A stretch of 64,000 nucleotides of DNA from Gammaproteobacteria bacterium (GTDB taxonomy: Bacteria; Pseudomonadota; Gammaproteobacteria; SG8-11): positions 1 to 64,000 of the forward strand of contig JAHECY010000013.1 in the NCBI GenBank assembly GCA_024641505.1, read 5' to 3'. The notes beneath the pieces were generated by a model. That model made no database searches and was not told the DNA's origin. It saw only the letters and a program-made list of their open reading frames with translations. Below are positions 38,402 to 64,000 of the stretch, one piece after another. A program made the position numbers and the translations under genes. Position 1 is the first letter of the stretch; every line of letters begins with the position of its first letter.

Positions 38402-38445
38402 GAAAGTATTAACGGCATCACAAAGATTTCATAAACCCTTGAAAA

Positions 38446-38477
38446 CCAAAAAAAATGCCGGCTATTGGCCGGCATTT
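38446..38477 (-). terminator. Rho-independent terminator of the beta-helix lipoprotein gene
   Basis: A perfect 10-bp stem AAATGCCGGC/GCCGGCATTT with a 5-base loop is preceded on the plus strand by a run of A, which is a U-run for minus-strand transcripts. It lies about 35 bases after the 38512 stop and just before the cyclase start, separating the two genes. Confidence 0.85.
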
Positions 38478-38511
38478 CCTAGGGGAGAATTTTTTTATTA
38501 GTTTCTTGGGG

Positions 38512-41505: not shown

Positions 41506-41533
41506 GGTTGTCACCTTATAACTGCTACTTCAC

Positions 41534-43111: not shown

Positions 43112-43283
43112 GATTTTTAGCTCCGGTCCAAGCATGATCATCGGCCTCGCGAATTCTGCTTTTAACTTAATGATTATTTTGCAGAGGAGGCAGCAAGTAA
43201 ACTGTGATACAGTCGAGGTCTGATATAAGATTTCGCGATTTACATATTGTAATAATCTTACCCGTTACGGCATAACGAATTGA

Positions 43284-46336: not shown

Positions 46337-46420
46337 GGTGCGTATGACGCACCGGCTTTTGTGGCCGGAGCAAAGTCTGACTTTGTTCAAAAAAACCACG
46401 GTGCGTCATACGCACCCTAC
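46333..46420. repeat. Palindromic repeat element between convergent genes
   Basis: Ends GTAGGGTGCGTATGACGCACC and GGTGCGTCATACGCACCCTAC are perfect inverted copies about 46 bases apart, with a smaller internal stem (AAAGTC TGA CTTT region). It spans the 3' ends of the DnaJ-domain gene and the response-regulator gene, including parts of both stop codons, and can serve as a bidirectional terminator. Confidence 0.75.
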
Positions 46421-47037
46421 AGGCTTTTCGCTCCTTCCATGGCGATGCGCACCACTTCCGACAACGACGACACGTTCATTTTCTCCATGATTTTGGAGCG
46501 ATGCGCCTCTACGGTGCGGCTACTGATACCCAATTGCGCCGCGATCACCTTATTGCGTTTTCCCTGCACCAGTAATTCCATTACTTCGCGCTCTCGAGGT
46601 GTCAAACTGGCGAGACGATGATCCACGTCACTGTGCTGTTCCTCCACTAAACGCTGTTGGGCATCCAACTCCAGACACAGCTTCACCTTTTGCAAAAGCT
46701 CATCATTTTTAAATGGTTTTTCGATAAAGTCCGCGACACCGGATTTCATGGCCTGAACCGCCATCGGCACATCACCATGGCCGGTGATAATCAACACCGG
46801 TAAAATTATCTTGCGTTTGAGCAGTTCCGTATGCAATTCCATGCCGCCCATGCCCGGCATACGCACATCGAGTATCAAACAACCGCGCCAAGTCGAATGA
46901 TACTGCTCCAAAAACGCTTCAGCGCTCTCATAAGTCTCAACATTGAGCTTGGCCGTGCGCATCAAAAATCGAATGGCGTCACGAATAGCCTCATCGTCAT
47001 CCACCACAAACACCGTCGGTTCATTACGAATTCGCAT
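46417..47037 (-). CDS. FixJ-like two-component response regulator
   Basis: 206 aa. Receiver domain: TVFVVDDDEAIRDAIRFLMR (acidic pocket), phosphoacceptor Asp in CLILDVRMPGMGG (about residue 56), conserved Thr in VLIITGHGDVPMAVQAMKSG and Lys in FIEKPFKNDEL. C-terminal LuxR/GerE helix-turn-helix: LTPREREVMELLVQGKRNKV, QLGISSRTVEAHRSKIMEKM. It is a DNA-binding transcription regulator. The ATG overlaps the stop of the upstream kinase gene (TGATG), so the two are a pair. Target genes cannot be read. The FixJ/TodT/StyR group controls respiration or catabolic genes. Confidence 0.93.
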   Translation of the reverse strand: MRIRNEPTVFVVDDDEAIRDAIRFLMRTAKLNVETYESAEAFLEQYHSTWRGCLILDVRMPGMGGMELHTELLKRKIILPVLIITGHGDVPMAVQAMKSGVADFIEKPFKNDELLQKVKLCLELDAQQRLVEEQHSDVDHRLASLTPREREVMELLVQGKRNKVIAAQLGISSRTVEAHRSKIMEKMNVSSLSEVVRIAMEGAKSL

Positions 47038-48644
47038 CAGTTATCCTCCGCTTCGGGTAGTGCGAAGCTAAAACGCGCCCCACCCGCACTATTTTCCTCG
47101 ACTCTGATCCGGCCACCATAACTCTGCACGATACTTTGACTGATTGCCAGGCCCATGCCGATACCCTCCGGTTTGGTAGTAAAAAAAGCATCGAATACAT
47201 CCGCCCCCGGCGGCACACCCGGCCCGGAATCATCTACCATGACATGGACGAAACCGTCAGCGGCATAGGTAGAGATCTCCAACAAACGCTGTTCCGCCAT
47301 GACACCTTCCATGGCATCAATCGCGTTGCGCGTCAGATTCAACAACACCTGCTCGATCAATATTACATTCACGCGCACCATTGGCAAGTGCCCCTGGAGA
47401 TCAAGGCGCAATCTGACATCATGCGACCGTACTTCCACACGTATCAGATCGACAATCCCACGTACCAGCTTACTGAGATTCACCAATTCAATACTCAACG
47501 AATCTTTCTTGGTAAAAGATCGAATATGTTTGATTATCTGCCCGCTGCGCAAGGCCTGCCGTTCAATCTCCCGCAACGCATCCCGCACGTCACCGATGTC
47601 AACAGCCGTGTCTTCCAGCAGACGCAAACAGCTGTCGCTGTAACTGGCAATTGCCGCCAGCGGCTGATTCAATTCGTGGGCGATCTCCGTGGCCATTTCC
47701 CCCATGGTGGACAAGCGGCTGGCATGTGCCAGATTCTGCAGGCGACGCCGGTCCAGAATTTCCATTTGCCGCTGCTCGGTGATGTCCATGCCGGTGAGAA
47801 TTACATACTCAACCGCGCCGCGGGTATCGAACAGGGAAGTGCTGGACCATTTCAATGTATAACGCGCACCGTCCTTTGCCAACAAAACATTCTCGTACTG
47901 ACTGGCGTCATCGGTATGCAGTATCCGGTGAAAAAAATCCTGGCCAAACTCCTCACTGTCCAAACCAGCGGACATTTCACCGATCGAGCGCCCGATGACC
48001 TCCTGACCATGATAGCCGGTGCGGGATTCGAATACCCTGTTTACCTTCTTGATATTACCGTGAGCATCCAACACGATAATCAACGCATCAATGGTATCCA
48101 GTATCGCCCGACTGAATTCATGTTCCATGCGCAGTTCCTGAGCGGTGCGCATATGTTCCGCGATCTCCAGACGCAGCATGGTATTAAGCTCTTTCAGCGA
48201 CCGGGTCCTTTCCTCTATTTTGAGTTCCAACTCATCATAGGCGCGTCGCAGAGCCTCCTCGAAATGTTCACGCTCCATCGCGTAATGAATGGAGCGTTGC
48301 ACGGTGTTACTATCATCCTTGCCACGCACCAGGTAGTCTTGCGCTCCCATGTGCATGGCTGCGGCCGCCAATGCCAGATCGTCCTTGCCGCTCAGGACAA
48401 TGATCGGCAGATCGGAACGTACGTCCTTGATCCGGCCGAAGGCCGCTTGATAATGGGACAGGCTGATGTCGAAAATGATTACATCCACCGGCGTATGACC
48501 CATAAAACGAACGGCGGAATCGATATCCAATTCGCTGTACAGGCAAAACTTCCCAGGCACGAAACCGGCAAGCGTGCTGGTCAGGTACGCGAGATCTTCC
48601 GGTCGTGAGCTCACCAGAAGAATTGTGGTGATGTTTCGTTTCAT
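47037..48644 (-). CDS. REC-PAS sensor histidine kinase (FixL-like)
   Basis: 535 aa, no membrane segment, so a cytoplasmic sensor. An N-terminal receiver-like domain (1-125: ITTILLVSSRPEDLAYLTST, VDVIIFDISLSHYQ, PIIVLSGKDDLALAA, lacking the second N-terminal acid), a coiled coil (about 125-175), a PAS domain (about 175-300: AILDTIDALIIVLDAHGNIK, LTGMDITEQRQME), HisKA with the phosphoacceptor His in EIAHELNQPLAAIAS, and HATPase (NLTRNAIDAMEG, DDSGPGVPPG, IGMGLAISQSIVQSYGG). The FixL/TodS class uses this dimerisation domain. It overlaps the FixJ-like regulator gene by one base. The signal sensed is unknown; no haem-PAS histidine was identified. Confidence 0.9.
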   Translation of the reverse strand: MKRNITTILLVSSRPEDLAYLTSTLAGFVPGKFCLYSELDIDSAVRFMGHTPVDVIIFDISLSHYQAAFGRIKDVRSDLPIIVLSGKDDLALAAAAMHMGAQDYLVRGKDDSNTVQRSIHYAMEREHFEEALRRAYDELELKIEERTRSLKELNTMLRLEIAEHMRTAQELRMEHEFSRAILDTIDALIIVLDAHGNIKKVNRVFESRTGYHGQEVIGRSIGEMSAGLDSEEFGQDFFHRILHTDDASQYENVLLAKDGARYTLKWSSTSLFDTRGAVEYVILTGMDITEQRQMEILDRRRLQNLAHASRLSTMGEMATEIAHELNQPLAAIASYSDSCLRLLEDTAVDIGDVRDALREIERQALRSGQIIKHIRSFTKKDSLSIELVNLSKLVRGIVDLIRVEVRSHDVRLRLDLQGHLPMVRVNVILIEQVLLNLTRNAIDAMEGVMAEQRLLEISTYAADGFVHVMVDDSGPGVPPGADVFDAFFTTKPEGIGMGLAISQSIVQSYGGRIRVEENSAGGARFSFALPEAEDN

Positions 48645-48706
48645 CTACATCAGACCAGAAATTACAGGAGTCACGCTATTGTATCCGGACGGTTATGGCA
48701 AGGATA

Positions 48707-50131
48707 CTATGCGGTATCGGCAACCCAATCCGCCACTCTGGGTACTTCCGCGAACGGCATGTACTGTTTGTTGAAAAATTGCGTAGCTACCTCATCGGCG
48801 AAAAAACCGCCTTTGGCGCTCAATTGAAATCGACGGTCATCCTCCACGATCATGCCGTTATCCTTGAACCAGGCCAATTCTGCGGCAAAAACCGCGCCGG
48901 CATCCTTCCCGGTGCGTGCGCGAAAGCGCGCTTTATCCACAAAAGAATTCTTCAGGGGCAGGATAAAACTGCGCCGCAACTCGTCGTCCGCGTCCCGTAC
49001 CTTGCCGCGATTGACCGACACTTTGCCGGCGTCGATATAACTGTAATACTTGCTCAGATCATGCTCACCGATATTCTGGGTAAATACCCCGCCCAGATTG
49101 GACCAGGACGATACGCCAACGCCGACCACGTCATGCAACCCACAACACCAGTCCCGTAAATAATGTGAAATCATATGCGGTTTTCTGGCAAAAACGCGGC
49201 GTTGATATTCATGGTAGCCGTGCTCCTCGGAAATCAGGATACCCAGATATTTCATCAAAAACACCGCATCCGCCTGCACAAACCGGTCGGGTTGCCGTTG
49301 AAACTGATCGACGATTTTGCCCGGTCGGTCACCGTGCTGTTTGATGCGCAGCCGATATAATTGATAGCCATCCACATCCAGGGTGACGGCCGCCAGCATT
49401 TCCGCGGTTAATTGTTCAATCGTCTGGCCCGGGTAACCGTAGATCAGGTCGATAAAGATATTGTCGAAGCCCGTGGCGCGCATATTGGCGATCGACTCCA
49501 GGGTTTGTCGGTGATCGTGAGCGCGTGCCATGGTGCGCAACACCTGATCATCGAGTGACTGTACCCCCAGACTGATGCGATCCACGCCATAATCTTTCAT
49601 GACGCGCAACCGAGCCAAGCCATCCTCGCCCAACAGAGTCGTGGGTTCCGCTTCCACGGAAAATTGCGTGCATTCACTGAGATCAAAGTGTCGGTGAAAA
49701 GCACTCAGCAAACGCTCGAGCTGTTTCGGTTCAGGATAAGTTGGCGTACCCCCGCCCCAGAGCACGGATTTCACTTTAATGGCATCGACACCCATCTTGG
49801 TGCGGTATAAATCCATTTCCCGCTCAAGATAGTCGATGTACATATCCACTTCACTGCTCTTGCTGCGTGTTTTGGTGATCCAGTGGCAGTAAGTACAACG
49901 GGTGGGGCAAAATGGCACGTGAAGATAGGCGGAAAGCGGGTCCCGACGCCGTTGGGCCAGATTGCTGAACAAGGGTGTCTCATCCATGTCCCGGTACATG
50001 GTCAACGGCGGATAGCCGATTACCGGAAAAAATTTTTCGCCCCGACCCGCGAGAAAACCGGAGTCCTTTAACTCATCGATATTGTAGTGCCGCAATTCCG
50101 CTTGCGCGCGTTTAATCCAGTCTGTTACCAA
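48707..50131 (-). CDS. HemN/HemW-like radical SAM protein
   Basis: 474 aa, TTG start at 50131 (no better in-frame start found). The SAM-cluster motif CxxxCxxC is in YLHVPFCPTRCTYCHWITKT (about residues 76-83), followed by LWGGGTPTYPEPKQLERLL, FSVEAEPTTLLGEDGLARL, GVDRISLGVQSLDDQVL and FIDLIYGYPGQT, the HemN-family order. The C-terminal domain (from about 330) resembles that of HemN relatives. Oxygen-independent coproporphyrinogen oxidase proper is not certain: HemN-like proteins also act in haem breakdown (ChuW/HutW) and as haem chaperones (HemW). No haem genes are near; it lies close to the small-peptide locus, so another substrate cannot be excluded. Confidence 0.78.
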   Translation of the reverse strand: MVTDWIKRAQAELRHYNIDELKDSGFLAGRGEKFFPVIGYPPLTMYRDMDETPLFSNLAQRRRDPLSAYLHVPFCPTRCTYCHWITKTRSKSSEVDMYIDYLEREMDLYRTKMGVDAIKVKSVLWGGGTPTYPEPKQLERLLSAFHRHFDLSECTQFSVEAEPTTLLGEDGLARLRVMKDYGVDRISLGVQSLDDQVLRTMARAHDHRQTLESIANMRATGFDNIFIDLIYGYPGQTIEQLTAEMLAAVTLDVDGYQLYRLRIKQHGDRPGKIVDQFQRQPDRFVQADAVFLMKYLGILISEEHGYHEYQRRVFARKPHMISHYLRDWCCGLHDVVGVGVSSWSNLGGVFTQNIGEHDLSKYYSYIDAGKVSVNRGKVRDADDELRRSFILPLKNSFVDKARFRARTGKDAGAVFAAELAWFKDNGMIVEDDRRFQLSAKGGFFADEVATQFFNKQYMPFAEVPRVADWVADTA

Positions 50132-50465: not shown

Positions 50466-51293
50466 TTAGATGAACTGCGCAATAACGACAGTGATATTGT
50501 CGGTACCGCCAAACTCGTTGGCGAGCTGAATCAGACATTTCGCCGTGGTTTCCAGGGAATGCACCTGGGTATGCAGAAACACCTGTTCGATCTGACGATC
50601 ACTGACCATGCCGGTCAATCCATCGGAACAAATGAGAACTTTATCGCCCGGTTCAAAGGAAATCATGGCGACATCAGGTTTCACTGAACCCCGCGGACCC
50701 AAGGCCCGTAATATGATATTTTTTTTGGGTGGGTTACCACTACCGCCGCGTTCCTGCCATTCCTGGTACAGTGTGTGATCGCGCGTCAGCTGGGTCAGAG
50801 CACCGGTACGATAGCGGTAAATACGACAATCACCGACATGGAATACCGCGGCTTTTTGATATTTTTCGAGCATTAACAGACCGGCGACGGTGGTGCCCAT
50901 ACCCGTGCCTTCCGGATAATTACGTTGCTGATTGCAGCCGAAGATGCGGTGATTGGCCGCCATGACCGCGTTGAGCACCGCGTCAAGCCCCATGGGCCCG
51001 ACCTCCATCATCGCGGTATCGTCCCGGTTTATCTGCTGAGTCTGGTCCAACGAGAACTCACGGGTGGCGGTATCGCCGCCGGTCGTCTGCAAGTATTCAC
51101 GAATACTCCTGACCGCCATGGTGCTGGCCACTTCACCCGCCTCGTGTCCACCCATGCCGTCGGCGACGATCAACAAACCAAGGTCCTCATCCAGTAACAG
51201 ACTGTCTTCATTGTTTTTTCGGCGCCTTCCGATATCCGTGGCACCGGCAGCCTGCATTAAACTGTTAGTAACTGAGATCATAGACTCACTCAT
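50466..51293 (-). CDS. PP2C-family serine/threonine protein phosphatase
   Basis: 275 aa. PP2C motifs: ATDIGRRRKNNEDSLLLDED, LLIVADGMGGHEAGEVAST (metal Asp-Gly), GTTVAGLLMLEKYQKAAVFH, VGDCRIYRYRTGALTQLTRD, KVLICSDGLTGMVSDRQIEQ and the last Asp-Asn in EFGGTDNITVVIAQ. Cytoplasmic, Mn/Mg-dependent, removes phosphate from Ser/Thr proteins. Stp1-type phosphatases work opposite Hanks-type kinases and FHA proteins. An FHA protein lies 9 kb away in the exporter operon, and a kinase is not in the window. Start at 51293 or 51281 (both ATG, no strong ribosome site). Confidence 0.92.
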   Translation of the reverse strand: MSESMISVTNSLMQAAGATDIGRRRKNNEDSLLLDEDLGLLIVADGMGGHEAGEVASTMAVRSIREYLQTTGGDTATREFSLDQTQQINRDDTAMMEVGPMGLDAVLNAVMAANHRIFGCNQQRNYPEGTGMGTTVAGLLMLEKYQKAAVFHVGDCRIYRYRTGALTQLTRDHTLYQEWQERGGSGNPPKKNIILRALGPRGSVKPDVAMISFEPGDKVLICSDGLTGMVSDRQIEQVFLHTQVHSLETTAKCLIQLANEFGGTDNITVVIAQFI

Positions 51294-51502: not shown

Positions 51503-51736
51503 TCAGGTATTGATATTGATGTCACCGAGCTTGGTGTTGTCCATGACATCGCCACCGACGGCTTCCTGATTTTGTTGGGTAAAGGCATTACCGGTCAAGG
51601 CTTCTGACAAACCAGCACCGATACCCATGCTGCCCAGAACACCGGTACCGACACCAACGCCCGCGCTATCGGCATTACCCGTTTGTGAACCAGCTGCTGC
51701 CAAGTTTCCTGCATCACCACCAGATTTTAAAGGCAT
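51503..51736 (-). CDS. Gly-rich small protein, putative exported or modified peptide (copy 2)
   Basis: 77 aa with a strong ribosome site (GAGGAG, 7 bases before the ATG at 51736). It is a paralogue of the 51829-52071 product: both share LKSGGDA-N-A-AGS near the N-terminus and GNAFTQQ/GDAFTHQ, GGxVxDNT and the last seven residues GDININT. The middle (GVGVGTGVLGSMGIGAGLSE) is glycine-rich and hydrophobic, like class II bacteriocins or spacer regions of precursor peptides. No Cys, no Sec signal and no double-glycine leader of usual length. The nearby ATP-grasp, ABC exporter and TolC genes suggest it is a substrate. Function unknown. Confidence 0.75.
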   Translation of the reverse strand: MPLKSGGDAGNLAAAGSQTGNADSAGVGVGTGVLGSMGIGAGLSEALTGNAFTQQNQEAVGGDVMDNTKLGDININT

Positions 51737-51828
51737 GTCATTTCTCCTCTGTATTGAAGTTGCTTATAGATGTACCCATCCCTGGAAAATACTGCTCCAT
51801 AAATTGCTTTTCCTTCGGTATGGATTCA

Positions 51829-52071
51829 TCAGGTATTGATATTGATGTCACCGATGCTGGTGTTGTCGCCCACGTTGCCACCGGCAGCGTTCTGCTCTTG
51901 GTGCGTAAAGGCGTCACCGGAAAGCCCGGCTGCGCCACCGAAACCCGCACCAATCCCTGCCAGTGCACCGACTCCAGCGCCGACACCGGATGAATCTACA
52001 CCACCTGACATTGATCCTGCTTCAGCAATATTCATTGCATCACCACCAGATTTCAGATTTTCTAATCCCAT
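51829..52071 (-). CDS. Gly-rich small protein, putative exported or modified peptide (copy 1)
   Basis: 80 aa; the ATG at 52071 has a strong ribosome site (AAAGGAG). Composition: short acidic N-terminus (GLENLKSGGDAMNIAEAGS), glycine/alanine-rich middle (VGAGVGALAGIGAGFGGAAG), then LSGDAFTHQEQNAAGGNVGD and the end IGDININT. It lies 92 bases upstream of its paralogue in the same direction; the two arose by tandem duplication, since the nucleotide sequence coding GDININT is repeated nearly exactly. Not a known family to me. If it is a precursor, the identical Thr/Asn/Asp-containing C-termini are the natural place for modification or for an export signal. Confidence 0.75.
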   Translation of the reverse strand: MGLENLKSGGDAMNIAEAGSMSGGVDSSGVGAGVGALAGIGAGFGGAAGLSGDAFTHQEQNAAGGNVGDNTSIGDININT

Positions 52072-52649: not shown

Positions 52650-53639
52650 ATGGCGGGACCGAAAATAGCACTGTTTGCCAATCACGACAGCAACCAGCTC
52701 AGCGCTTTACATGAGATCCTCGAGGACCAGGGCGCTCGTTCGCAGATGTTTGATATCAAGCTTGGTGGCGACACCGCGCCTACCGTCACCATGGAACAAG
52801 ACCGTCTATGCTGGAATGGCGTGACGTTCGACGATATTCAGGCGATACATGTGCGCTGCACCGCACTCAACACCCTGCCGGTGCTGCCGCCGATGCTCAA
52901 TGAAATGTACGCCACGGAACTCCGTCTCGCGTTCTTGCGCGAACAACACTTTCAGGCAGTGACGTTTTCCTTCTTCGACAATCTCGCCGCGCAAGGCAAG
53001 CTGGTGATAAATCCGCTCACCAGCGCTTATATCGATCACGACTCGAAGTCTCAACTCTATGAAAAACTGCGTGCCTGGGGGTTTGATGCACCCATGTCAT
53101 TAAGCACGAACGATCCCGCACAGGCATCAAAATTTATCGACAGCTACGCTGAAGTGGTGGTCAAGCCGGCGCTGGGCGTGGGTTCCACCCGGGTGATCAG
53201 CCCGCAGGATATGGAACGTTTGCAGGAATTTACCCTGTGCCCGGTCATCATGCAGGAGCGCGTCATGGGTGACACCATACGGGTACACATCGTCGGCGAT
53301 CATGTGGTACTGGCCTTGAAGATCCTCAATGACGGCAACGTGGATTCGAGAACGGAGACCAAAGGTTTCGAGTTTTTTACCATGCCCGAGGAACAACAGC
53401 GTAAAATCACCGACGCCACGCGCCGCTTGGGACTGCGCTATGCCGCCTGGGACATTATCGCCACGGAGCAAGGCCGATACTCTTATCTGGACTGCAATCC
53501 CGGTCCCTATATCATGTGGATCGGGCCGGAAAATGTGCGCCGCGTCTTTACCGAACTCGCCAGATACATGATCACGTTCGCCAACACCGGTTCCCTGGAA
53601 GCAGCCAGCGCTGCGGTGACGCCGGCCACCCGCCACTGA
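52650..53639 (+). CDS. RimK-like ATP-grasp enzyme
   Basis: 329 aa, cytoplasmic. N-terminal Rossmann-like part (KIALFANHDSNQLSALHEIL). ATP-grasp core from about 130: SKSQLYEKLRAWGFDAPMSL, the ATP-binding lysine in AEVVVKPALGVGSTRVISPQ, MQERVMGDTIRVHIVGDHVV, and the metal/ATP residues in YLDCNPGPYIMWIGPENV (D-x-N). RimK relatives join amino acids to C-termini; in graspetide pathways such enzymes make ester or amide crosslinks in small peptides. It lies divergent from the two Gly-rich peptide genes and convergent with a second ATP-grasp-like gene. The substrate is not proven. Confidence 0.85.
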   Translation: MAGPKIALFANHDSNQLSALHEILEDQGARSQMFDIKLGGDTAPTVTMEQDRLCWNGVTFDDIQAIHVRCTALNTLPVLPPMLNEMYATELRLAFLREQHFQAVTFSFFDNLAAQGKLVINPLTSAYIDHDSKSQLYEKLRAWGFDAPMSLSTNDPAQASKFIDSYAEVVVKPALGVGSTRVISPQDMERLQEFTLCPVIMQERVMGDTIRVHIVGDHVVLALKILNDGNVDSRTETKGFEFFTMPEEQQRKITDATRRLGLRYAAWDIIATEQGRYSYLDCNPGPYIMWIGPENVRRVFTELARYMITFANTGSLEAASAAVTPATRH

Positions 53640-53661: not shown

Positions 53662-54705
53662 CTAGTCCGACGACATCGGTCGGTGTTTGCTCCGCTCCAT
53701 GTCGAACAGCACTGTCAACATGCGCCTCAAGAACAAGGTCGCGCGTTGTTGCGGTCCGGCGGGCCTGGTCGGCAAGGCGTCGGTATCCGGTCGCTGGAGC
53801 AGATGCCGTGCCAGTGTCTCCAGCAGAAAATCACGGTGGGCCGGTGGCAATCCAAGCACTATCGGGTCCACATCGATATCATAGATCCACTGCGTAGCGC
53901 CTTCCGGCACCAATGCAACACTCACCCATTCATGTCCCAGCTTCTCATGCAAGTAGCGCCCGCATTCCCGGGTGTCCAATTCCGGATCTTCCCAGAACGT
54001 TTCCAGCGTTTCCACCGGGTGGTAACCAGGTCCCCGGCACTGCAGATTCAGCAGCGACTTACCCGCGAAATAATAACTCCGTACGTAGGCGCCGGGTTTC
54101 ACGGCGCAGACGATCACCGGCGGCTTATCGGGCGCGCACAAATGCGCAAGCTGGCGCGCGCCGAAACTCTGCCACGCGCCATGACCGGTGGCGGGCCGCC
54201 AAACGGTAAGTTCATGGCGCGCGCAAAACTCTGTTGCCCGCTCCTGATCATTGGTACAGATCATGGGCGGTACCGCGCATCCCAGACGGCGCATTTGTTG
54301 CAATTGTTCGTACTTCATGAAATTGCCGAGCAACGCGCGTAATGGACTGAGGGTAGCTACGCCATGGCGCTGCAGCTCCTGCACCAGGCTCAATATATAG
54401 CTGAATTTCTGTTGATCCAGCACGTGTCCGCTTTGCCACAAACTCCAATCAACAGCGGTGACGGCGCGGGGCACGACCGGGTATTGGTAGCAGAGCCCGT
54501 GGATATAGGCATATTTAAGCTTGCGCAGGTCGATGCCGTCAAAGCGCAGCAGGTCGCTTCCCAATGTCGATAACTGGTTTCCCTCCAATCCCAAATCGAA
54601 GTAGTGGGCGCTGCCGGGCTGCACCCGGTTCAGCGTGTCCACCAGCAGCAGTGCCTGACCTTGCGCGCCATAACCGAAAACGCCTATCGCAGGATGCTTG
54701 ATCAT
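53662..54705 (-). CDS. Degenerate ATP-grasp-like protein
   Basis: 347 aa. The N-terminus (AIGVFGYGAQGQALLLVDTL) and the central part (FMKYEQLQQMRRLGCAVPPM, then LTVWRPATGHGAWQSF, CAVKPGAYVRSYYFAGKSLL, WIYDIDVDPIVLGL) follow the ATP-grasp pattern of the 52650 product, but the usual ATP-binding lysine appears as Arg and the final D-x-N as D-x-D. It may be a weak or inactive relative acting as a partner, or a divergent enzyme. It is the last gene of the exporter operon: its ATG overlaps the TolC-like stop (ATGA), so translation is coupled to the outer membrane channel. Confidence 0.62.
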   Translation of the reverse strand: MIKHPAIGVFGYGAQGQALLLVDTLNRVQPGSAHYFDLGLEGNQLSTLGSDLLRFDGIDLRKLKYAYIHGLCYQYPVVPRAVTAVDWSLWQSGHVLDQQKFSYILSLVQELQRHGVATLSPLRALLGNFMKYEQLQQMRRLGCAVPPMICTNDQERATEFCARHELTVWRPATGHGAWQSFGARQLAHLCAPDKPPVIVCAVKPGAYVRSYYFAGKSLLNLQCRGPGYHPVETLETFWEDPELDTRECGRYLHEKLGHEWVSVALVPEGATQWIYDIDVDPIVLGLPPAHRDFLLETLARHLLQRPDTDALPTRPAGPQQRATLFLRRMLTVLFDMERSKHRPMSSD

Positions 54706-56651
54706 GGTGACGCACTCCCGGCCAATACCGGCAGCAGCGGCGTAAAATAGTACAGGCGACCAGTGTGTTGCAGCGCCGCAAGCCGCATACGTTCAAAATC
54801 ATTGCTGGCGGCATCACTGACATGCATCTGCTGCAACATGCCCATAGCCTGATACAAGCCCGTCTCGGCCTGTTTACGGGCGATACGCGCCGCCGCTACC
54901 GCGGAGCGCGCCGTATGCAGATTACGCAGGGTTTCCAGCAGTTCATTCTCATTGACGTCCGCGCCGATGTCCCGACGTTTACGCAAGCGATCGAAAGCGG
55001 TTTCGCTGAAGTTCGCCATCTCCTGGGAAAATTTCAATCGGCTATCCGCCAGTTGCACGAGGTCAAAGCCCATATCGATCTCCTGTCGTACACGTAGCTG
55101 CAACAGCTGCCCCTGCAGTGCGGTGTCCTCGGCACCGGCGGTGGCGCCGGTGACCCGGGCCCGTGCCGCCCGGTTGAACAATGGATAACGGTAACTGACG
55201 CCATATTCCTGGGTACGACTGTCCGGGTCCAGCAGATGGGACACGGAATCCGTCATGGACTTATAGCCGTAAACGCTGCCATCCTGCATCAAATTCATGG
55301 CCGCGCTGAAGTTGATGTTCGGTCGCGCCTGATTTCCGGCCGCGAATTGAGTCAGCTGCGCCGTATCCTTTGCCAGCGCCTGCAGGTGTACATCGGGGCG
55401 CTGTTGCAGCGCATTGGCGAGCGCGGCTTCCCTGCTGGGCAAGTTGGCCGCGGCCAGCAACCTGGAATATCCATAGGGGAGATAAATGAACCGATCGGCC
55501 GCCGACGCCTCATCTTCCACCAACAATCCCAGCGTCTGCGAGGCGGCGAAATACAGCTGCCTTGCTTCTTCCTGTTCAGCCGAAGCCCGCGCCAATTCCG
55601 CCTCGATCAACGCGCTGTCGTAGTTGGTGGCCTTGCCGGATTGCAGCAAGCGCTGCGTGCGCTGAACCTGTTCCCGCACCAGTTCGACATTTCCATCGGC
55701 GAGCGCAATACGTTCAAGCATCGCCACCAGGCGCCAGTAGCCGGCATCCACCTCCGCGCTGATGGCATCGAGCGCCGCTCTTACGTCCCAATGAGCCGAT
55801 TCAAATTCCTTGCGCCGCAAGGCCTGCTGTATGGCCGCCGGTCCGTAGTTGCCAAAACCCGCGCCACCCGGCAGCGGCGTATCCAGATTGAGCAGCATAT
55901 TGGATGACCACGACGCGTTATAACTGTACCGCTTTTTCGCGACATTGTAGTATACGTCCTTGTCAACGGTCATCACGCCCAGCGCGATACGCGTGCCCCA
56001 TGGCGTCAATTGATCGAGATTGACATTGTATTCCGTGGATTCTTCCGGACCGTTGATCTGGCGCTGACTGACCTCGATATCTTTAGTGACGGTCTCACTT
56101 TCCTGCCGCGTACGGAAACCAATGGTCGCGACCTGCGGATCATTAGCGTCCTGCGGCACCACGATATCCAAGGGACTTTTAGGCGTGAATTTACGTTCCA
56201 CGATGGTGCCATTGATGGTGCGCTCGTAAGTCTGGTTTTTGCGCCGCCCGACACCCAGATTCAGCTGCGGGTCGAACACCGCCTGCGCTTCCTGTATGGC
56301 ATCACGCACCTTCTCCGACTCCGCCTTGCGCACCCGCAGGGCGAGATTTTTGTTCAATGCCTGCAACAACGCCTGATCGCGACGCAGGTACTGAATCTGA
56401 CGGTTTGCCAACAAGTGCCAGGCACCGATGTTCTTCGGCGCGCTCACGGCATCTTCAACCACTTTATGAAACTGGCGTTCCGCCGCCGGCACGTCGACCG
56501 CCAGACTCGCGCGTGGGCTCGCGTCAGATGGCGCATTCGCCGGCGCAGCGGCCAGCACCACGCCGTCGAGGGCGCAGCCTGCCAGCGCCAGCAGCACCGC
56601 ACCAGCGATGCGCATCGACTGCGGATCTCGGTTATTATGCCACCCGGACAT
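54702..56651 (-). CDS. TolC-like outer membrane efflux protein (third of three)
   Basis: 649 aa, with a strong ribosome site (AAGGAGGTGG) before the ATG at 56651, which shares one base with the previous stop (TAATG). Signal peptide about residues 13-35 (RIAGAVLLALAGCALDGVVL). An N-terminal extension of about 80 residues is followed by the OEP pattern: ALLQALNKNLALRVRKAESE, EAQAVFDPQLNLGVG, AALDAISAEVDAGYWRLVAM, LLQSGKATNYDSALIEAELA, and the second half with RAARARVTGATAGAED and ADSRLKFSQEMANFSETAFD. It should form the outer membrane channel of a type I exporter or efflux pump. It is longer than usual TolC (about 450-490). Confidence 0.85.
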   Translation of the reverse strand: MSGWHNNRDPQSMRIAGAVLLALAGCALDGVVLAAAPANAPSDASPRASLAVDVPAAERQFHKVVEDAVSAPKNIGAWHLLANRQIQYLRRDQALLQALNKNLALRVRKAESEKVRDAIQEAQAVFDPQLNLGVGRRKNQTYERTINGTIVERKFTPKSPLDIVVPQDANDPQVATIGFRTRQESETVTKDIEVSQRQINGPEESTEYNVNLDQLTPWGTRIALGVMTVDKDVYYNVAKKRYSYNASWSSNMLLNLDTPLPGGAGFGNYGPAAIQQALRRKEFESAHWDVRAALDAISAEVDAGYWRLVAMLERIALADGNVELVREQVQRTQRLLQSGKATNYDSALIEAELARASAEQEEARQLYFAASQTLGLLVEDEASAADRFIYLPYGYSRLLAAANLPSREAALANALQQRPDVHLQALAKDTAQLTQFAAGNQARPNINFSAAMNLMQDGSVYGYKSMTDSVSHLLDPDSRTQEYGVSYRYPLFNRAARARVTGATAGAEDTALQGQLLQLRVRQEIDMGFDLVQLADSRLKFSQEMANFSETAFDRLRKRRDIGADVNENELLETLRNLHTARSAVAAARIARKQAETGLYQAMGMLQQMHVSDAASNDFERMRLAALQHTGRLYYFTPLLPVLAGSASP

Positions 56652-58564
56652 TATTCCACCTCCTTGAAAAACCTCAGCAGTCCCGATCGCTGTATCGAAG
56701 CCACCCGCGATGCATCAAGGTCCTGCTGCGCCACCAGTTTGGCGTAAAAACCCGGCAACCGTCCCTGGGCCGCCAAATAATTCGTGCGTGCCAGATGTAA
56801 ATCGATCTCCGCCTGTATCAATTGCTGGCGCGCGTCCAATAGCTCATCACCTTTGATCACCAGTTCGTACTCGCGCACGTTGCGCGCCTGCTGACCGCTG
56901 CTGATCTTGTCATAGATAAAGGTGGTCAATTCGACGTTCTTGCGCTGTAAATCCACAATCTTGCGGGCGCTGGTCAGCACGGAAATCGCGTCGTTGCTGC
57001 GCCGTATGGCGCTATTGGCGGCGGCTTTGCGCAAGGCCAGCGCCTGCGCATGACGATAGCGCGCTTGATCCCGGGCGGCGGCGGCCGCGCTGTTGCCCAG
57101 TGGATAAACATAGACCATGCTGTATTTTTGCGATATGAAATCCGGATCGGAAATATGTCCCACTGCCTCACTGGCGCTGGCATAACCAAATACATTGTGA
57201 TTCTGCCCTAATGTCACACCGGCATTGATACTCAAATCCGGTGCCGCATCCCGACGCCGAAACTGATAATCCAGTTCGGCGATGCGCGCCGCGCGGTCCG
57301 CCGCCAGCACCTGTGGATGCTGTTCCGGGGCGGCGGGTGTTTCGGTCATCACCAGTTGCGGATCCACCGTCAGCGCATGATCATAGCCGGAGGGTAACAA
57401 TACCGTTCCCGCCGCCATGTCGAGCAGTACCACAAGCTGATCGGAGGCATTCAGAAATTCGTACCAGGTTTGCTCTAGCTGGGACTGCACTCGTGCCTGA
57501 TCCGCCGCCACATGCGCTTTTTCATAGGCCGTGATCTGGTTCAGTTCGAACAGTCGCTCAGTGCGTCGCACCACTTGGGAGAGATTATCCAGGTGCATTT
57601 GCGCCACTTCCACATTGCGCGCTTGCTGCACCAGATTCCAGAAGGCGGCATCCACGGTCAGCAAGGTATCGTTAATAATAGCGTCCACTTCGGCGCGCGC
57701 CTGCTGCACGGCTTCCCGGGCGCTGTTGGCATCGCTATCCGAGCGGGCGTAGGCGCCGGAATTACGGGTCCAAGGCAAAGGCGCGCTGAAATTCACATCC
57801 AAAGAAGCCGTCCACGGCCGGCCATAGGAACCATAGCGGGCTTTGTCCGCGAAACGCGCGCCATAATTGTTGATATAATAAGTATCCCGCCGCAACAGGC
57901 CCAGGCCCAGATCCAGTGCCAAGCCCCAGGGCAACTGCTGTACCCAGCCCAATTGATAATTCCAGGAATCCTGCGGCCCGACCAGAGAACTTTCACTGGC
58001 GACGATCCTGGTTTCATGGTAACCCTCGGTCCTGGGTCGATCAAATGTTACATATTCCACCGGTCCCTCATCGAAGGTGACGGCATTGCTCACCGTCTGA
58101 CCGCCGTCGGTATTGTATTCCTGCGTGGCGCTACTGTACTTGCTGTCGCTGAGCACCCGGTCGTAGCGGGAAGCGCGCGCAAACTGCGCGGTCAACGTGA
58201 ACACCGGATCGAATAACGCCGACGCCTCCTGCAATGCAACCTGCGCCTGAGTATTGAACACCTGTCCGCGCTTGATATCGAGATTATTGTTAAGTGCCCG
58301 CATGGCGGCATCGCGCCAAGCCACATCCTGCCATTGCAAACCCGTAATCCTGGAACCCACTCCGTCCCGGCGCTGCTGCGCCGCTTTGCGAACGAATTCA
58401 TTCAAGGCCAGTTCTTGGCTGCTGGGCGCGATCGTCGCATTTTGTTGCGCCGGGATACCGGGTGGCGTGCCTGGTTCCGCCGCTATGCCAGTTTCGACAA
58501 TCAGCAACAGCGCGCCGCCCACAACAGCCACGGACCATGCAGTTAAACTCAAGCGTGCCATCAT
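56651..58564 (-). CDS. TolC-like outer membrane efflux protein (second of three)
   Basis: 637 aa from the ATG at 58564, which overlaps the preceding TolC-like stop as ATGA; AAGGAG lies 6 bases upstream. Signal peptide (SVAVVGGALLLIVETGIAA). OEP pattern: AMRALNNNLDIKRGQVFNTQ, EASALFDPVFTLTAQFARA, ARAEVDAIINDTLLTVDAAF, WNLVQQARNVEVAQMHLDNL, NQITAYEKAHVAADQARVQ, with the second half containing GNSAAAAARDQARYRHAQ. It is a distinct paralogue of its two neighbours, not a recent duplicate. Same operon, same inferred role as an outer membrane channel or its accessory. Confidence 0.85.
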   Translation of the reverse strand: MMARLSLTAWSVAVVGGALLLIVETGIAAEPGTPPGIPAQQNATIAPSSQELALNEFVRKAAQQRRDGVGSRITGLQWQDVAWRDAAMRALNNNLDIKRGQVFNTQAQVALQEASALFDPVFTLTAQFARASRYDRVLSDSKYSSATQEYNTDGGQTVSNAVTFDEGPVEYVTFDRPRTEGYHETRIVASESSLVGPQDSWNYQLGWVQQLPWGLALDLGLGLLRRDTYYINNYGARFADKARYGSYGRPWTASLDVNFSAPLPWTRNSGAYARSDSDANSAREAVQQARAEVDAIINDTLLTVDAAFWNLVQQARNVEVAQMHLDNLSQVVRRTERLFELNQITAYEKAHVAADQARVQSQLEQTWYEFLNASDQLVVLLDMAAGTVLLPSGYDHALTVDPQLVMTETPAAPEQHPQVLAADRAARIAELDYQFRRRDAAPDLSINAGVTLGQNHNVFGYASASEAVGHISDPDFISQKYSMVYVYPLGNSAAAAARDQARYRHAQALALRKAAANSAIRRSNDAISVLTSARKIVDLQRKNVELTTFIYDKISSGQQARNVREYELVIKGDELLDARQQLIQAEIDLHLARTNYLAAQGRLPGFYAKLVAQQDLDASRVASIQRSGLLRFFKEVE

Positions 58565-60435
58565 TGCCGCTCCTTGGCGCTGTGCGCCGTATACCATTGA
58601 TGAAGCCGGCCCGCCGCAAACAACGATTGCGCCTGTTCGCGCCGTGTCGCCACCGCCGCCGCGATATAGGCATCGACCGCCTGGTAAAGCATTTGCAGAG
58701 TGCGTACCCGCTCAAACTCGGTCAGGGAGTTCTGCTCCCGCATACGACCGGATCTGTCATAGGCACTCTGTGCCAAGTCGAGATTAACACCGAGCTGGCC
58801 AAGGCGACTGTCGGTACTGGCTTGCGCCGACTGCGCATCCTGGTACGTCCGGTGCACGTTATTGCGCGCCAATGCAACCCGCAGCGCCGCCTGTTGCTGT
58901 TCGGTACGGGATCTGCTCCAGGCGGCTTTCTCCGCCCGCTGCCCGAAGGCATAGCGGTAGTTGATGCCGATATAGGTTTGGCGCTGATCAGGATCAAAAA
59001 TATGCTCATAGGAGTCATTCCAGGTCTTATAGCCAAATACCTGGTCGCTCTGCCGATAGCTGATATTCATTACCAGACTGATATCGGGTCGCACTTGCTC
59101 GGCGAAGAAGCGGGTCAACAACGTGTTTTTCTGCTGTTCAAGTGACGCCATCAGCACTTCGGGGTGCTGATCCGCCATTTGACGAATATCGACAGCCTCC
59201 ACCATTTCGTCGGACAGCAGTTCGGCAACCGACACATCGGCGACCAGCACGGCGCCATCATCGAGATTCAAAAGATCTACCAGCAGATTGGAAGCGCCCA
59301 GATATTCCTGCCACGCCAATTCACTGGCGATGGCTGTGCGTTCCAGCTCAGTATCCAGTTGCGCCATATCGTAGGAGGTAAGATTATTCGAGTCGAACAA
59401 ACGCCTGCCGCGTTGCGCCAGTGCCGTAGCGGCATCTAAATGGTGCTGCACCATGCTCAACCGATACTGCCGACGCACCAGATCCCAAAATGCGGCGGCT
59501 ACCTGATTCAGCACTTCATTACTGCGCTGCTCCAGGCGCAACTTGCCGATGTCTCGATCCAGGTTTGCCACCTCGGTATTGACACGCGGCCCATAGGCCT
59601 GGGCACCAAAATTGCGCGCATAGGGCATGGGAGTATTGAAGGTAAAAAAGAAAGCGCTGGTCCAGGGATAATTGGAGCCGGTACCGATCGGATCGCCATG
59701 GGAGCCGTTGATCAGCTCCATGCGATTCAAGGTACTGTAACCACTCTTGATGCGGCGCGTTGATTGCAGTTGCGCGGAAACGCTGCTGCCCCAGGGCAGG
59801 ACTTGCAAGGCCTGAATAGCGAAAACGTTGGCTTCCGGTTCCACAGGGGTTTTGGAACTGGCTAATTCAACTCTTGTGTCAACCGCAGTCTCCATTGAAC
59901 AATATTCCGGATTGATGATTTCACCATCAATGATCACACAGGTCAAGCGGCCAAGATCCTGTGCCTGCTGATCCTGCGCGTTGACGGCTACCGCCGTTTC
60001 CTCGTCGGTACCGACTATATTGCCGTCTTGTTCCCCCGCCTGATTTGTCTTGCCTTCATATTCACGGGTGATCTCGGCACTGCGCGCCATAAAGCCGGTA
60101 CGCGTATGTTCGGCCCGCAGCGCAAACAGTGGATCGAAAGCACTGCGGCTGAATGCGATACCGGCCGCTGCGGACTGCAAAGCATTGCGTTCCGCCAGCA
60201 GCAACGGACTGCTGTTGATAGCGCGGCGGTATGCGTCGTCTTGTTTGATAATCATCGGCACCGGCGTCGCCGCGCCGCCGCTGACGGACATGGATTTGAT
60301 ACGCCCGGTGACGACAGCGGCACCGTTACCTCCGACAATCATATCCATGACCGCCTGGGGCACCGGCGCCGCCGTGACCGGCGTAACGCTCCACAGCGCC
60401 ACTATCGAAATTACCGCGCCTACCCTTCCCATCAT
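58561..60435 (-). CDS. TolC-like outer membrane efflux protein (first of three)
   Basis: 624 aa, ATG at 60435 with GGGAAG upstream. Signal peptide (VGAVISIVALWSVTPVTAA). OEP features: ALQSAAAGIAFSRSAFDPLF, LRLEQRSNEVLNQVAAAFWD, RRGRRLFDSNNLTSYDMAQL, AYDRSGRMREQNSLTEFERV, and the RYAFGQRAEKAAWSRSRTEQ segment. The first 130 residues carry an extra part not seen in TolC. Downstream of the FHA gene with a 35-base gap. Three different TolC-like genes in a row suggests either a heterotrimeric channel or separate channels for separate cargo. Confidence 0.85.
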   Translation of the reverse strand: MMGRVGAVISIVALWSVTPVTAAPVPQAVMDMIVGGNGAAVVTGRIKSMSVSGGAATPVPMIIKQDDAYRRAINSSPLLLAERNALQSAAAGIAFSRSAFDPLFALRAEHTRTGFMARSAEITREYEGKTNQAGEQDGNIVGTDEETAVAVNAQDQQAQDLGRLTCVIIDGEIINPEYCSMETAVDTRVELASSKTPVEPEANVFAIQALQVLPWGSSVSAQLQSTRRIKSGYSTLNRMELINGSHGDPIGTGSNYPWTSAFFFTFNTPMPYARNFGAQAYGPRVNTEVANLDRDIGKLRLEQRSNEVLNQVAAAFWDLVRRQYRLSMVQHHLDAATALAQRGRRLFDSNNLTSYDMAQLDTELERTAIASELAWQEYLGASNLLVDLLNLDDGAVLVADVSVAELLSDEMVEAVDIRQMADQHPEVLMASLEQQKNTLLTRFFAEQVRPDISLVMNISYRQSDQVFGYKTWNDSYEHIFDPDQRQTYIGINYRYAFGQRAEKAAWSRSRTEQQQAALRVALARNNVHRTYQDAQSAQASTDSRLGQLGVNLDLAQSAYDRSGRMREQNSLTEFERVRTLQMLYQAVDAYIAAAVATRREQAQSLFAAGRLHQWYTAHSAKERQ

Positions 60436-60470: not shown

Positions 60471-62174
60471 CTACGAGCCGGTTTCCTGACGCCGGCTCAA
60501 TTCATCCCAGCGATTGATAATACGCAAGGAATTTTCGTCAACTTTTTCCACCAGCCGTTGAAAATACGGATACGTAACCGAAATCGCCAGATGTCCATTC
60601 TTCTTCTTATCGATGAACTCTTTCTTATAGTGCTGGGCTTCCTTGAGATCATACATGTTTGGCGCGCGCTCACTGCCCGCCACCGGGTCTGGAAAGCGCT
60701 GCACAAACAGACTCAGACGCATCATTACTGCACTTAACGACAACAGGTCCGCCACGTCCTGAATGGTTTTATGCTGCTCCGCGCCAACATCACTCCTCAC
60801 CACCAGCGGCTGCAGTTTGGCTTCATGCTCGGCCACCAGATCCAGCGCCTCCTGTACCATGCTCGCCTGCATCAACCGATTCAAGTCACGCTCGAAACCG
60901 AGAAACATTAATTGCGCTTGGGCGGCCGCCAGCGAGGAATCGTCGGGATAGTGACTGGCCACCACATTGAGTTGCGCCGACACATCACGAATTTCATTCA
61001 TTTGATTAAGAAATTGCTGGCTGTTGACCGACACATTATCCTCTTCCATGCCGGTCAGAATTGCCTGCACCCGGGCCACGCTGCTGGATATTTCCGCATT
61101 CTTTTCCCGATGACCGGCATTGAGAAAATAAACCAGTATCAGCAAAGCCACCACAAAACCCAAAGCAGCGGCTGGCGCCGGACGCATGGTGCGGCGCACA
61201 TGTTTTTTCGCGGGCGCGGCAGCGACAGCTTGCGCTCTCGGTGCCGATGCCGGCATGGGTTTGGCGACAATCGGCGCCGCTACCGGTACTGCCACCGGCT
61301 CTTGGGATTGCGCTTGCTCTTCCTCAATCGCTTTAATCAGCACTTCGCTGGCGCGTACATCATCGAATAACATGGTGCCGGCCTCATCCTCGACGACCGC
61401 AGCTTTGCCTTGGGCGGCGCCGGCCTGCTGTACCTTAACCGTAAATTGAAAGTTCACGGGACCCACCTGCACCTGATCACCATCCCGCAACATGGATTTG
61501 CGAATCTGCTCGCCATTGATGCGCACGCCATTGGTGCTTTTCAGATCCTCAACCCACCAGTTGCCCTGCGCATAACTGAACTCGGCATGTTTGCGCGATA
61601 TTTTTTTGTGCTCCACATGCAGTTCGGTATCGGCATCTCGGCCCATGCACATGGTCTGCGCGCCCAGCGCGAACGCCAGGCCGGGAAACTGTTCATCCTG
61701 GCTCATCAATGTTGCGGACATGGTGGGCACATGCTCGGTGCCCGCCGGTGCCAACATTGTGGCATTGACGTCCAAAACGTTGCCGGCGCCGTCGCTGTCG
61801 ACTATTACCGTGGCCGCCGGTAATTCATTTTCGAACCTAAATGGCAAAGCACCGAATTCCACGATATCGCCGTCGGTCAGCGCCACCATCGAGACTCGTT
61901 TGCCGTTGACCTGCACCCCATTGCTGCTGTTGAGATCCTCAAGTGTCCAAACTCCGGCACTGTTGCTGATACGAGCATGCTGCCGCGACACTTGATTGTC
62001 CTCGACCAATAAATCGGCCTGGGCGTCACGGCCGATCACTTGTCCATCCCCCGACAATTCGAACAACAGACCGTGAAACCTGTCGTCAAGAGACACCAAT
62101 CGTGCCTGGCCGGCGCCGGCGAACCCAGCCGCGCCCGGGGCCGAGTCTTTGCGCATGTCATTCTTGCTTGCCAC
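60471..62174 (-). CDS. Inner-membrane protein with two FHA domains
   Basis: 567 aa, GTG start at 62174 with AAGGGGAAG upstream (ATG at 62156 is an alternative). FHA 1 (about 35-115: GQVIGRDAQADLLVEDNQVS, RQHARISNSAGVWTLEDLNS, SNGVQVNGKRV); FHA 2 (about 165-245: MCMGRDADTELHVEHKKISR, KHAEFSYAQGNWWVEDLKST, NGVRINGEQI); Ala/Pro linker; one membrane segment (about 336-352, AAALGFVVALLILVYFLNAG); then a helical periplasmic domain (about 360-567). FHA domains bind phosphothreonine, and SRQH/SRKH plus SNG/TNG motifs are intact in both. It likely couples cytoplasmic Thr phosphorylation to the exporter, with the PP2C gene at 50.5 kb as counterpart. Confidence 0.9.
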   Translation of the reverse strand: MASKNDMRKDSAPGAAGFAGAGQARLVSLDDRFHGLLFELSGDGQVIGRDAQADLLVEDNQVSRQHARISNSAGVWTLEDLNSSNGVQVNGKRVSMVALTDGDIVEFGALPFRFENELPAATVIVDSDGAGNVLDVNATMLAPAGTEHVPTMSATLMSQDEQFPGLAFALGAQTMCMGRDADTELHVEHKKISRKHAEFSYAQGNWWVEDLKSTNGVRINGEQIRKSMLRDGDQVQVGPVNFQFTVKVQQAGAAQGKAAVVEDEAGTMLFDDVRASEVLIKAIEEEQAQSQEPVAVPVAAPIVAKPMPASAPRAQAVAAAPAKKHVRRTMRPAPAAALGFVVALLILVYFLNAGHREKNAEISSSVARVQAILTGMEEDNVSVNSQQFLNQMNEIRDVSAQLNVVASHYPDDSSLAAAQAQLMFLGFERDLNRLMQASMVQEALDLVAEHEAKLQPLVVRSDVGAEQHKTIQDVADLLSLSAVMMRLSLFVQRFPDPVAGSERAPNMYDLKEAQHYKKEFIDKKKNGHLAISVTYPYFQRLVEKVDENSLRIINRWDELSRRQETGS

Positions 62175-62200: not shown

Positions 62201-64000
62201 CTAGACCAGCGGCGGCAGATCGAACTGCGATTTCGCCAAATTATAGTATGATCCCTTGTAGCCCTTTTCCTTAAGGTAATCCGGATCGGTCAATTCCGCG
62301 TGCGCGCCCATCTCCGCCACTTTACCGTCGCTGATATAGCAAATGACATCGGCATTGACAATGGTGCTCAAGCGATGCGCAATGGTTATCGACGTCCGAC
62401 CCTTGAGAATGTTTTCCATATTATGCTGAATCTGCTTTTCCGATTCGTTATCCAGCGCACTGGTGGCTTCATCGAAAATCAGAATACTCGGATTCCGGTA
62501 AAGCGCGCGGGCAATACAGATGCGCTGGCGCTGCCCCCCTGATATACCAATGCCTTTCTCACCCACCAGAGTCTGGTATCCCAGAGGATAATTGATAACG
62601 AATTCATGCGCCCCGGCGAGGCGCGCCGCTTCCAGCACCGCCTGCATGTCCGGAGTGGGATCACCGAGGGCGATATTCTCCGCCACCGTACCGGCAAACA
62701 GAAAGCTGTCCTGCAACACCACCCCGATGTTGCGGCGCAACGAACCCAGATCGAGATTGCGGATGTCCTTGCCATCCACTTTACACTGCCCGGATTTTGG
62801 TACATTGAATCCCAGCACCATTTTGGCAATGGTGCTTTTGCCGCAACCGCTGGGGCCAACCAGCGCGATACGCGTTCCCGGCTCGATATTGAGATCGAAG
62901 TCCTTCATCACGAAATTTTCACGTTCATTCGCCAGGTAACTGAAATTTACTTTTTGAAAGTTGATGGCGCCACGACACTCGTTCAACGTAGCCGGCAACT
63001 TTTCAGGGTCGTTAGGCATTTCCTGTTCCGGTCGCACCGCAAGTATTTCACCAACCCGGTCCACGGACACTCTGATTTCTGCGATTTGGTTCCATAAACC
63101 CACCAGCTGATTAATCGGCGCAATCACCAACCCGACCAGCATATTGAACCCCATCAATTCCCCGATGCTCATTTGCCCCGCGATAACCTGATTCGCGCCC
63201 AGCCACAGAATCGCTATCGTCGAACTCAACCCCACTAATTTGTGCAAGCTAGTCGAAGTGAGATTCAGTTTGGAAGACTCATACCCCTTCTTCACATTCT
63301 CGACAAACGCCGATTCCCAACGCGTACGCGCCATGTATTCGTTGGCGCTGGCCTTTAGCGCCTCGATACCGTTCAACGATTCGATCAAATGGGCCTGCGT
63401 CTGGGTATTGGTTAAAAACATATCCTGCGCAATCGCCTTAATGCGCGGCGTATAAAATGCGGCGAGACCGACGTAGACGGGGATAAAAATCAATACCAGC
63501 ATGGTCAACGAAGCGTTATAGGCGAGCATCATCAACAAATACACTACGACCATCAGACTGTTCAATAACACGGTAACCGTGGAACTGGCGATAAACTCCC
63601 GAATGCGGGCATTTTGCCCGAACCGGCTCAAGATTTCGCCCTTATTACGCGTCAGAAAAAATTCCATGGGCATGCTGAGTACATGCCGATAAAACTCCGA
63701 CATCATCCGCAGATCGATGCGCGCGGTGGTATATGCCAACAACAGACTTTGCGCCGCACCGGTTAACGTGGAAAACACCGTTACCAGCGCCATGCCCACC
63801 AGCATCATATTGAGTAAAGCGACATCCTGGTGTACCACCACATTGTCCACTATGGTTTGCACGAACAATGGTGAAGCCAGGCCCAGCAGGTTTATCGCCA
63901 GCGCGGCCAACATGGCTTCACCGTAGTAGCGTTTATAAGGCAACATATAGTTGATAAAATGATATAAAGGCTTTTTCGGCGGCTCCCGTTGCTCGAATAC
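62201..64000 (-). CDS. Peptide exporter-type ABC transporter (permease and ATPase fused), N-terminus beyond the window
   Basis: 599 codons are visible; the frame stays open to the right edge (preceding the first ATG, at 63946, are residues VFEQREPPKKPLYHFINY), so the protein is longer and an N-terminal C39-type peptidase or regulatory domain may lie outside. Seen: six membrane segments (about residues 20-320) and an ATPase domain with Walker A GPSGCGKST, Q-loop VLQDSFLFAG, signature ISGGQRQRICIARAL, Walker B ILIFDEATSALD and the switch His in SITIAHRLSTI. It resembles HlyB/bacteriocin-type exporters. It sits 26 bases upstream of the FHA gene and forms the inner membrane part of the system. 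Confidence 0.85.
   Translation of the reverse strand, partial: VFEQREPPKKPLYHFINYMLPYKRYYGEAMLAALAINLLGLASPLFVQTIVDNVVVHQDVALLNMMLVGMALVTVFSTLTGAAQSLLLAYTTARIDLRMMSEFYRHVLSMPMEFFLTRNKGEILSRFGQNARIREFIASSTVTVLLNSLMVVVYLLMMLAYNASLTMLVLIFIPVYVGLAAFYTPRIKAIAQDMFLTNTQTQAHLIESLNGIEALKASANEYMARTRWESAFVENVKKGYESSKLNLTSTSLHKLVGLSSTIAILWLGANQVIAGQMSIGELMGFNMLVGLVIAPINQLVGLWNQIAEIRVSVDRVGEILAVRPEQEMPNDPEKLPATLNECRGAINFQKVNFSYLANERENFVMKDFDLNIEPGTRIALVGPSGCGKSTIAKMVLGFNVPKSGQCKVDGKDIRNLDLGSLRRNIGVVLQDSFLFAGTVAENIALGDPTPDMQAVLEAARLAGAHEFVINYPLGYQTLVGEKGIGISGGQRQRICIARALYRNPSILIFDEATSALDNESEKQIQHNMENILKGRTSITIAHRLSTIVNADVICYISDGKVAEMGAHAELTDPDYLKEKGYKGSYYNLAKSQFDLPPLV

Follow-up and report, generated by a model that had tools for sequence, protein, structure and literature searches.

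A multi-copy family of small glycine-rich peptides with conserved ends is encoded beside graspetide-ligase-like ATP-grasp proteins and a C39-type exporter

Two short open reading frames lie in tandem on one strand of the window, i.e., the 64,000-nucleotide stretch of a gammaproteobacterial contig that was analyzed. They are separated by 92 bp and encode peptides (A and B) that are 58% identical overall and have in common an LKSGGDA motif and the C-terminal sequence GDININT. The original prediction that these are genuine genes with strong ribosome sites was borne out, with no change of coordinates, and the identical C-termini were likewise seen in both translations. The surrounding genes encode two ATP-grasp proteins, three TolC-like proteins, an FHA-domain protein, a protein phosphatase, and an ABC exporter (Table 1). 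The exporter gene extends past the window as far as contig base 65368, with hlyD before it.

Table 1. Peptide genes and neighbouring cluster genes in the window.
Feature	Coordinates	Strand	Product	Basis
PP2C-type protein phosphatase, probable regulator	50466..51293	minus		Pfam PP2C_2
Peptide gene B	51503..51736	minus	77 aa, MPLKSGGDA...DNTKLGDININT	ORF with GGAGA ribosome site; HMM member, E 5e-39
Peptide gene A	51829..52071	minus	80 aa, MGLENLKSGGDA...GDNTSIGDININT	ORF with AGGAG ribosome site; HMM member, E 6e-35
ATP-grasp 1, likely peptide-tailoring enzyme	52650..53639	plus	Intact ATP-grasp motifs	Pfam ATP-grasp_3/RimK; PsnB best in PDB
ATP-grasp 2, probable partner protein	53662..54705	minus	ATP-binding signature lost	No Pfam match; PsnB best by profile and fold; alignment
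TolC-like outer membrane protein 3	54702..56651	minus		Pfam OEP; conserved in cluster
TolC-like outer membrane protein 2	56651..58597	minus		Pfam OEP; conserved in cluster
TolC-like outer membrane protein 1	58561..60435	minus	Divergent	Pfam OEP, weak; conserved in cluster
FHA-domain protein	60471..62174	minus	Two FHA stretches	Pfam FHA, E 4e-40; conserved in cluster
cNMP-binding/C39-peptidase/ABC exporter	62201..64000	minus	C-terminal part	Orthologue in each tested genome with peptides

When the 4.78 Mb genome was searched with a degenerate DNA pattern for GDININT, six matches were obtained, each of them on an open reading frame of this kind; the reversed control gave none, which rules out chance. 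An HMM search of this genome retrieved exactly seven peptide copies, namely A and B, two in tandem on contig C115, and single copies on contigs C53, C158, and C204. The C53 copy comes immediately after a gene for a subtilisin-like protease in the same orientation (L025 353-1594). By HMM, the congener (MAG UBA6920, G001) encodes four copies, one of which corresponds in position to the C204 copy, with a glycosyltransferase-like gene on one side and a methyltransferase-like gene on the other. Class- and phylum-wide HMM searches, together with re-reading of ATP-grasp neighbourhoods, revealed distant members in other Gammaproteobacteria (G332, G236, G136, G249), in the class of the Magnetococcales MAG (G371=G539, G410, G469, G496, G500, G523), and in one further genome (G643). 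Most genomes contain several copies (three to eight per genome), often in tandem arrays. No model in Pfam or NCBIfam matches the family, and no homologue of known function, which had been named beforehand as possible counter-evidence, was found for it. The viral contigs and plasmids searched contained no relatives of the peptides and one distant ATP-grasp only. We rejected the possibility that the peptides are repeat units of a larger adhesin or phage protein, since all members are free-standing open reading frames and nearly all have their own ribosome site.

Members of the family contain the N-terminal motif K-[SMTH]-GG-[DE] and the C-terminal motif D-[NQ]-T-x-[ILM]-G followed by exactly six residues. 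In the 40 distinct members, which were collected with a pattern that left this spacing free, DNT and the stop are always exactly 12 residues apart, and the variants KHGGDA, KSGGEA, and DQTAIG also keep this spacing. The K and D/E of KxGGD and the D and T of DNT are invariant or nearly so, a pattern unlike published graspetide cores; this conservation of motif letters is partly due to selection of members, as the 40-member collection required both motifs, with the seven own-genome copies having come via the HMM. Nearly all members have the GG, an exception being one G643 copy with SSGDA, and the last residue of all 40 is small (T, S, A, or G). The middle spans 35-72 residues with 25-51% glycine, two to eight acidic residues follow the GG in each member, and the tail contains one acidic residue in half of the members. 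Both ends are conserved outside this genome, in line with the proposal of conserved ends around a variable glycine-rich middle. However, the free drift proposed for the middle did not hold up, given that it keeps a G-x-G pattern and that A and B remain similar overall.

The two ends also differ from the middle in synonymous and nonsynonymous change. Among the seven own-genome copies, pN was 0.000 for the six N-terminal motif residues and 0.079 for the last 12 residues, compared to 0.318 for the middle; the corresponding pS values were 0.55, 0.47, and 0.66. Such high synonymous divergence in all three parts, with low pN at the ends, indicates constraint at the protein level and not recent gene conversion; the latter was rejected as the source of the identical ends, the synonymous sites of which are nearly as diverged as those of the middle. 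Both ends are therefore held by purifying selection on the protein.

Gene order was compared between lineages. Contigs C158 and C169 overlap by ~130 bp within hlyD (L022 1-135 and the end of G000:C169), so that they represent one locus split in assembly, with a third peptide gene directly upstream of hlyD. For the window lineage, we infer the order Calx-beta protein, peptide, HlyD, C39-ABC exporter, FHA protein, TolC-like proteins 1-3, ATP-grasp 2, ATP-grasp 1 (on the other strand), two peptides, and PP2C phosphatase. In the Magnetococcales class, where some loci end at contig borders, the order is sigma-54 activator, PpiC, HlyD, C39-ABC exporter, FHA protein, TolC-like proteins 1-3, ATP-grasp 2, peptide array, and ATP-grasp 1. 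In most genomes, peptide arrays adjoin ATP-grasp 1, and they often have ATP-grasp 2 on their other side. The PP2C gene adjoins ATP-grasp 1 also in G236 and lies near it in the congener. The Calx-beta protein, which is large and has a GlyGly-CTERM-like tail by eye, is encoded directly upstream of the hlyD-side peptide in both congeners (L022 1686-4400; L026 4977-7574).

The closest solved structure for both ATP-grasp proteins, by profile and by fold, is the plesiocin ligase PsnB, ahead of RimK. For ATP-grasp 1, the match to PsnB has a profile E of 3.7e-35 and a fold E of 1.4e-23 at ~23% identity, and graspetide ligases occupy ranks 1-31, before RimK. The fold comparisons used AlphaFold2 models of both proteins (mean pLDDT of 81 and 76). 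NCBIfam graspetide maturase models match ATP-grasp 1 below their cut-offs. The NCBIfam RimK models are far below theirs; on this ground, together with its greater proximity to PsnB, ATP-grasp 1 is not a RimK orthologue. The original prediction of a modifying ATP-grasp and a type I exporter was right as to kind, but the RimK-like assignment gives way to one closer to graspetide synthetases. In the alignment, the KPAxGVGSTR and DCN motifs are kept in ATP-grasp 1 and lost in ATP-grasp 2, and the latter looks catalytically degenerate from its sequence.

The full exporter is a protein of 1055 aa that contains two N-terminal cNMP-binding stretches, a C39 peptidase domain, and an ABC core. The part within the window gave the impression of an exporter without C39, which was dismissed once the full open reading frame showed this domain. 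Its C39 domain matches PCAT proteases, and the triad C326/H399/D415 is intact in the window lineage and most orthologues. The Cys/His pair is lost in G136, G249, G410, and G413, the first three of which carry peptides nonetheless. Cleavage by C39 at GG is hence rejected as the whole reason for KxGGD, a motif that must serve as more than a protease site because these three lineages retain it. For the same reason, namely the lost catalytic Cys, it is uncertain whether the peptides are cleaved at GG.

The peptides co-occur almost perfectly with the exporter and ATP-grasp 1. For the Gammaproteobacteria sample, the numbers of genomes with both peptide and exporter, exporter only, peptide only, and neither were 4/3/0/362 (Fisher 5e-8); for the Magnetococcales class they were 6/1/0/41 (Fisher 6e-7). 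Both p-values are optimistic owing to shared descent. Every peptide-bearing genome tested contains an exporter orthologue, and two of the three gammaproteobacterial genomes scored as exporter only were later found to encode divergent peptides beside ATP-grasp 1. ATP-grasp 1 was found in all peptide genomes but G643, where searches returned none, and in none of the controls. G413 contains the exporter and lacks both peptide and ATP-grasp 1. No peptide was found in G148, which has the exporter and ATP-grasp 1, in the ~116 kb read and a genome HMM scan. Together with conservation in two bacterial classes and the contrast in pN and pS, this co-occurrence gives good support to the proposal of precursor or secreted peptides whose two ends are under selection. 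The fixed C-terminus may be a modification site, an export signal, or both.

We consider it fairly probable that the peptides are precursors of an ATP-grasp-modified, type-I-exported peptide, i.e., a graspetide-like RiPP. The two genes in the window would then be precursor genes within a multi-copy ribosomal peptide family. ATP-grasp 1 would modify the peptides and, like graspetide synthetases, most likely introduce a side-chain ester or amide; the degenerate ATP-grasp 2 may be its substrate-binding partner. The neighbouring type I machine, comprising the cNMP/C39 ABC exporter, HlyD, and the TolC-like proteins, would export the products, and exporters with an intact C39 triad may also process them at the GG near the N-terminus. 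Recognition could rest with a leader formed by the variable N-terminal stub and KxGGD. The fixed 12 residues at the C-terminus would be another site of recognition or modification, and the glycine-rich middle would be the faster-evolving body. In a more elaborate version, which we regard as a long shot, the KxGGD and DNTSIG ends are themselves the reaction sites of ATP-grasp 1, assisted by the dead ATP-grasp partner; the termini would be joined in a large ring or chain-to-chain link around the fast-evolving body, and export through the machine with three TolC-like proteins would be gated by Ser/Thr phosphorylation and cyclic nucleotides.

Other explanations fit parts of these data. The peptides could be unmodified and microcin- or bacteriocin-like, with the C39 ABC exporter cutting after GG and exporting them while the ATP-grasps act elsewhere. 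The near-universal GG close to the N-terminus, the C39 triad intact in most lineages, and a G-x-G body that resembles small pore-forming peptides are all consistent with this account. Nevertheless, we judge it unlikely: ATP-grasp 1 adjoins the arrays and is missing from G413, which has the exporter and no peptide, the conserved D-A after GG is unusual for a plain cleavage site, three peptide-bearing lineages have a dead C39, and no immunity gene was recognized. It is quite doubtful that ATP-grasp 1 acts as RimK does, adding amino acids to a free C-terminus and thereby fixing the length of the tail. Its membership of the RimK fold family and the residue-exact C-terminus with a small last residue in every one of the 40 members agree with such an activity, but PsnB and other graspetide ligases outrank RimK, and an export signal would also predict a fixed tail.

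A further alternative, which has a low probability in our estimation, is that the peptides are structural, with many glycine-rich copies exported in quantity as a matrix or surface coat, whether or not the ATP-grasp cross-links them. The copy number per genome, the glycine-rich composition, the three TolC-like proteins, and the large adhesin-like proteins near the locus (cadherin/TSP3, Calx-beta) point in this direction, whereas the small size and diversified copies would equally fit signalling or competition. This alternative concerns role only and is compatible with the graspetide-like precursor explanation, under which the products might act in competition, signalling, or a matrix.

The system resembles graspetide loci, e.g., that of PsnB (PDB 7DRM-7DRP), in its same-fold ATP-grasp and in having small precursors in several copies close to the enzyme gene; ATP-grasp loci also commonly contain HlyD and C39-type exporters (PMC8939145). 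It differs in that the precursors have few acidic residues, a residue-exact Gly-rich/DNTSIG architecture, and no recognized known leader motif, and in that the single-acid tail of half of the members holds fewer acids than well-studied graspetide cores. The second, degenerate ATP-grasp and the FHA, PP2C, cNMP, and three TolC-like components also set it apart. Over 21,000 graspetides have been predicted and one, rosaritide, is PpiC-dependent (PMC13097080). Many of the present loci also encode a PpiC-type protein alongside the ATP-grasp system, and the role suggested for ATP-grasp 2 resembles such dependence on a partner protein; in contrast, the precursor sequences are unrelated, and PpiC here stands directly beside HlyD and the exporter, for which reason it may serve secretion. 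No PpiC was seen in the lineage of the window. PCAT/C39 double-glycine exporters (6MPZ, 4RY2) have the same combination of C39 domain and ABC core, with the triad present in most orthologues here, but the present exporters carry two N-terminal cNMP-binding stretches, have a dead C39 in some lineages, are accompanied, as type I secretion exporters are, by TolC and HlyD partners, and are paired with a KxGGD context unlike a classical double-glycine leader. We describe the system as a graspetide-like variant and not as a proven graspetide. The literature searched for the motifs and the gene combination, a search outside which the supplementary lists of PMC8939145 and PMC13097080 fall, contained no description of it. 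A residue-exact C-terminus and a degenerate second ATP-grasp are unusual among ATP-grasp peptide systems. The family, which lacks a Pfam or NCBIfam model and extends across distant proteobacterial classes, has a likely tailoring enzyme, exporter, and regulators grouped in one locus, which makes its function directly testable.

The FHA, PP2C, and cNMP components suggest that phosphorylation and second messengers control the type I exporter. In lineages other than that of the window, 11 of 32 peptide upstream regions contain sigma-54 promoter-like sites (at least 9/11 to TGGCAC-N5-TTGCW), compared to 1.8 expected from dinucleotide shuffles. These sites mostly precede the first gene of an array, and the clusters of the lineages concerned include a sigma-54 activator. 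The window lineage, in the cluster of which no such activator was seen, gave no support for sigma-54 promoters (1 of 11 upstream regions versus 0.5 expected). A row of genes at 36134-44696, upstream in the window, encodes a CHASE2-guanylate cyclase, a cadherin/TSP3 protein, a FecR protein, and a TPR/SlipAM-like protein; the cyclase may feed the cNMP-binding exporter. Between this block and the peptides (46417-50131) lie genes for a HemN-like radical SAM protein, a FixL-like histidine kinase, and a response regulator, whose conservation extends to the congener and not to the distant loci. On a peptide contig of G410, a Ser/Thr kinase fused to an FGE-sulfatase domain adjoins an FHA gene (L139 7033-8580), and two similar repeats of an FGE-like protein, recognized by eye, lie upstream of a Magnetococcales peptide (L021 2-1605). 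A ShlB/FhaC-type outer membrane translocator is encoded near the cluster in G332, G136, and G249 (L071 4183-5892; L078 15163-16893; L079 1417-3138).
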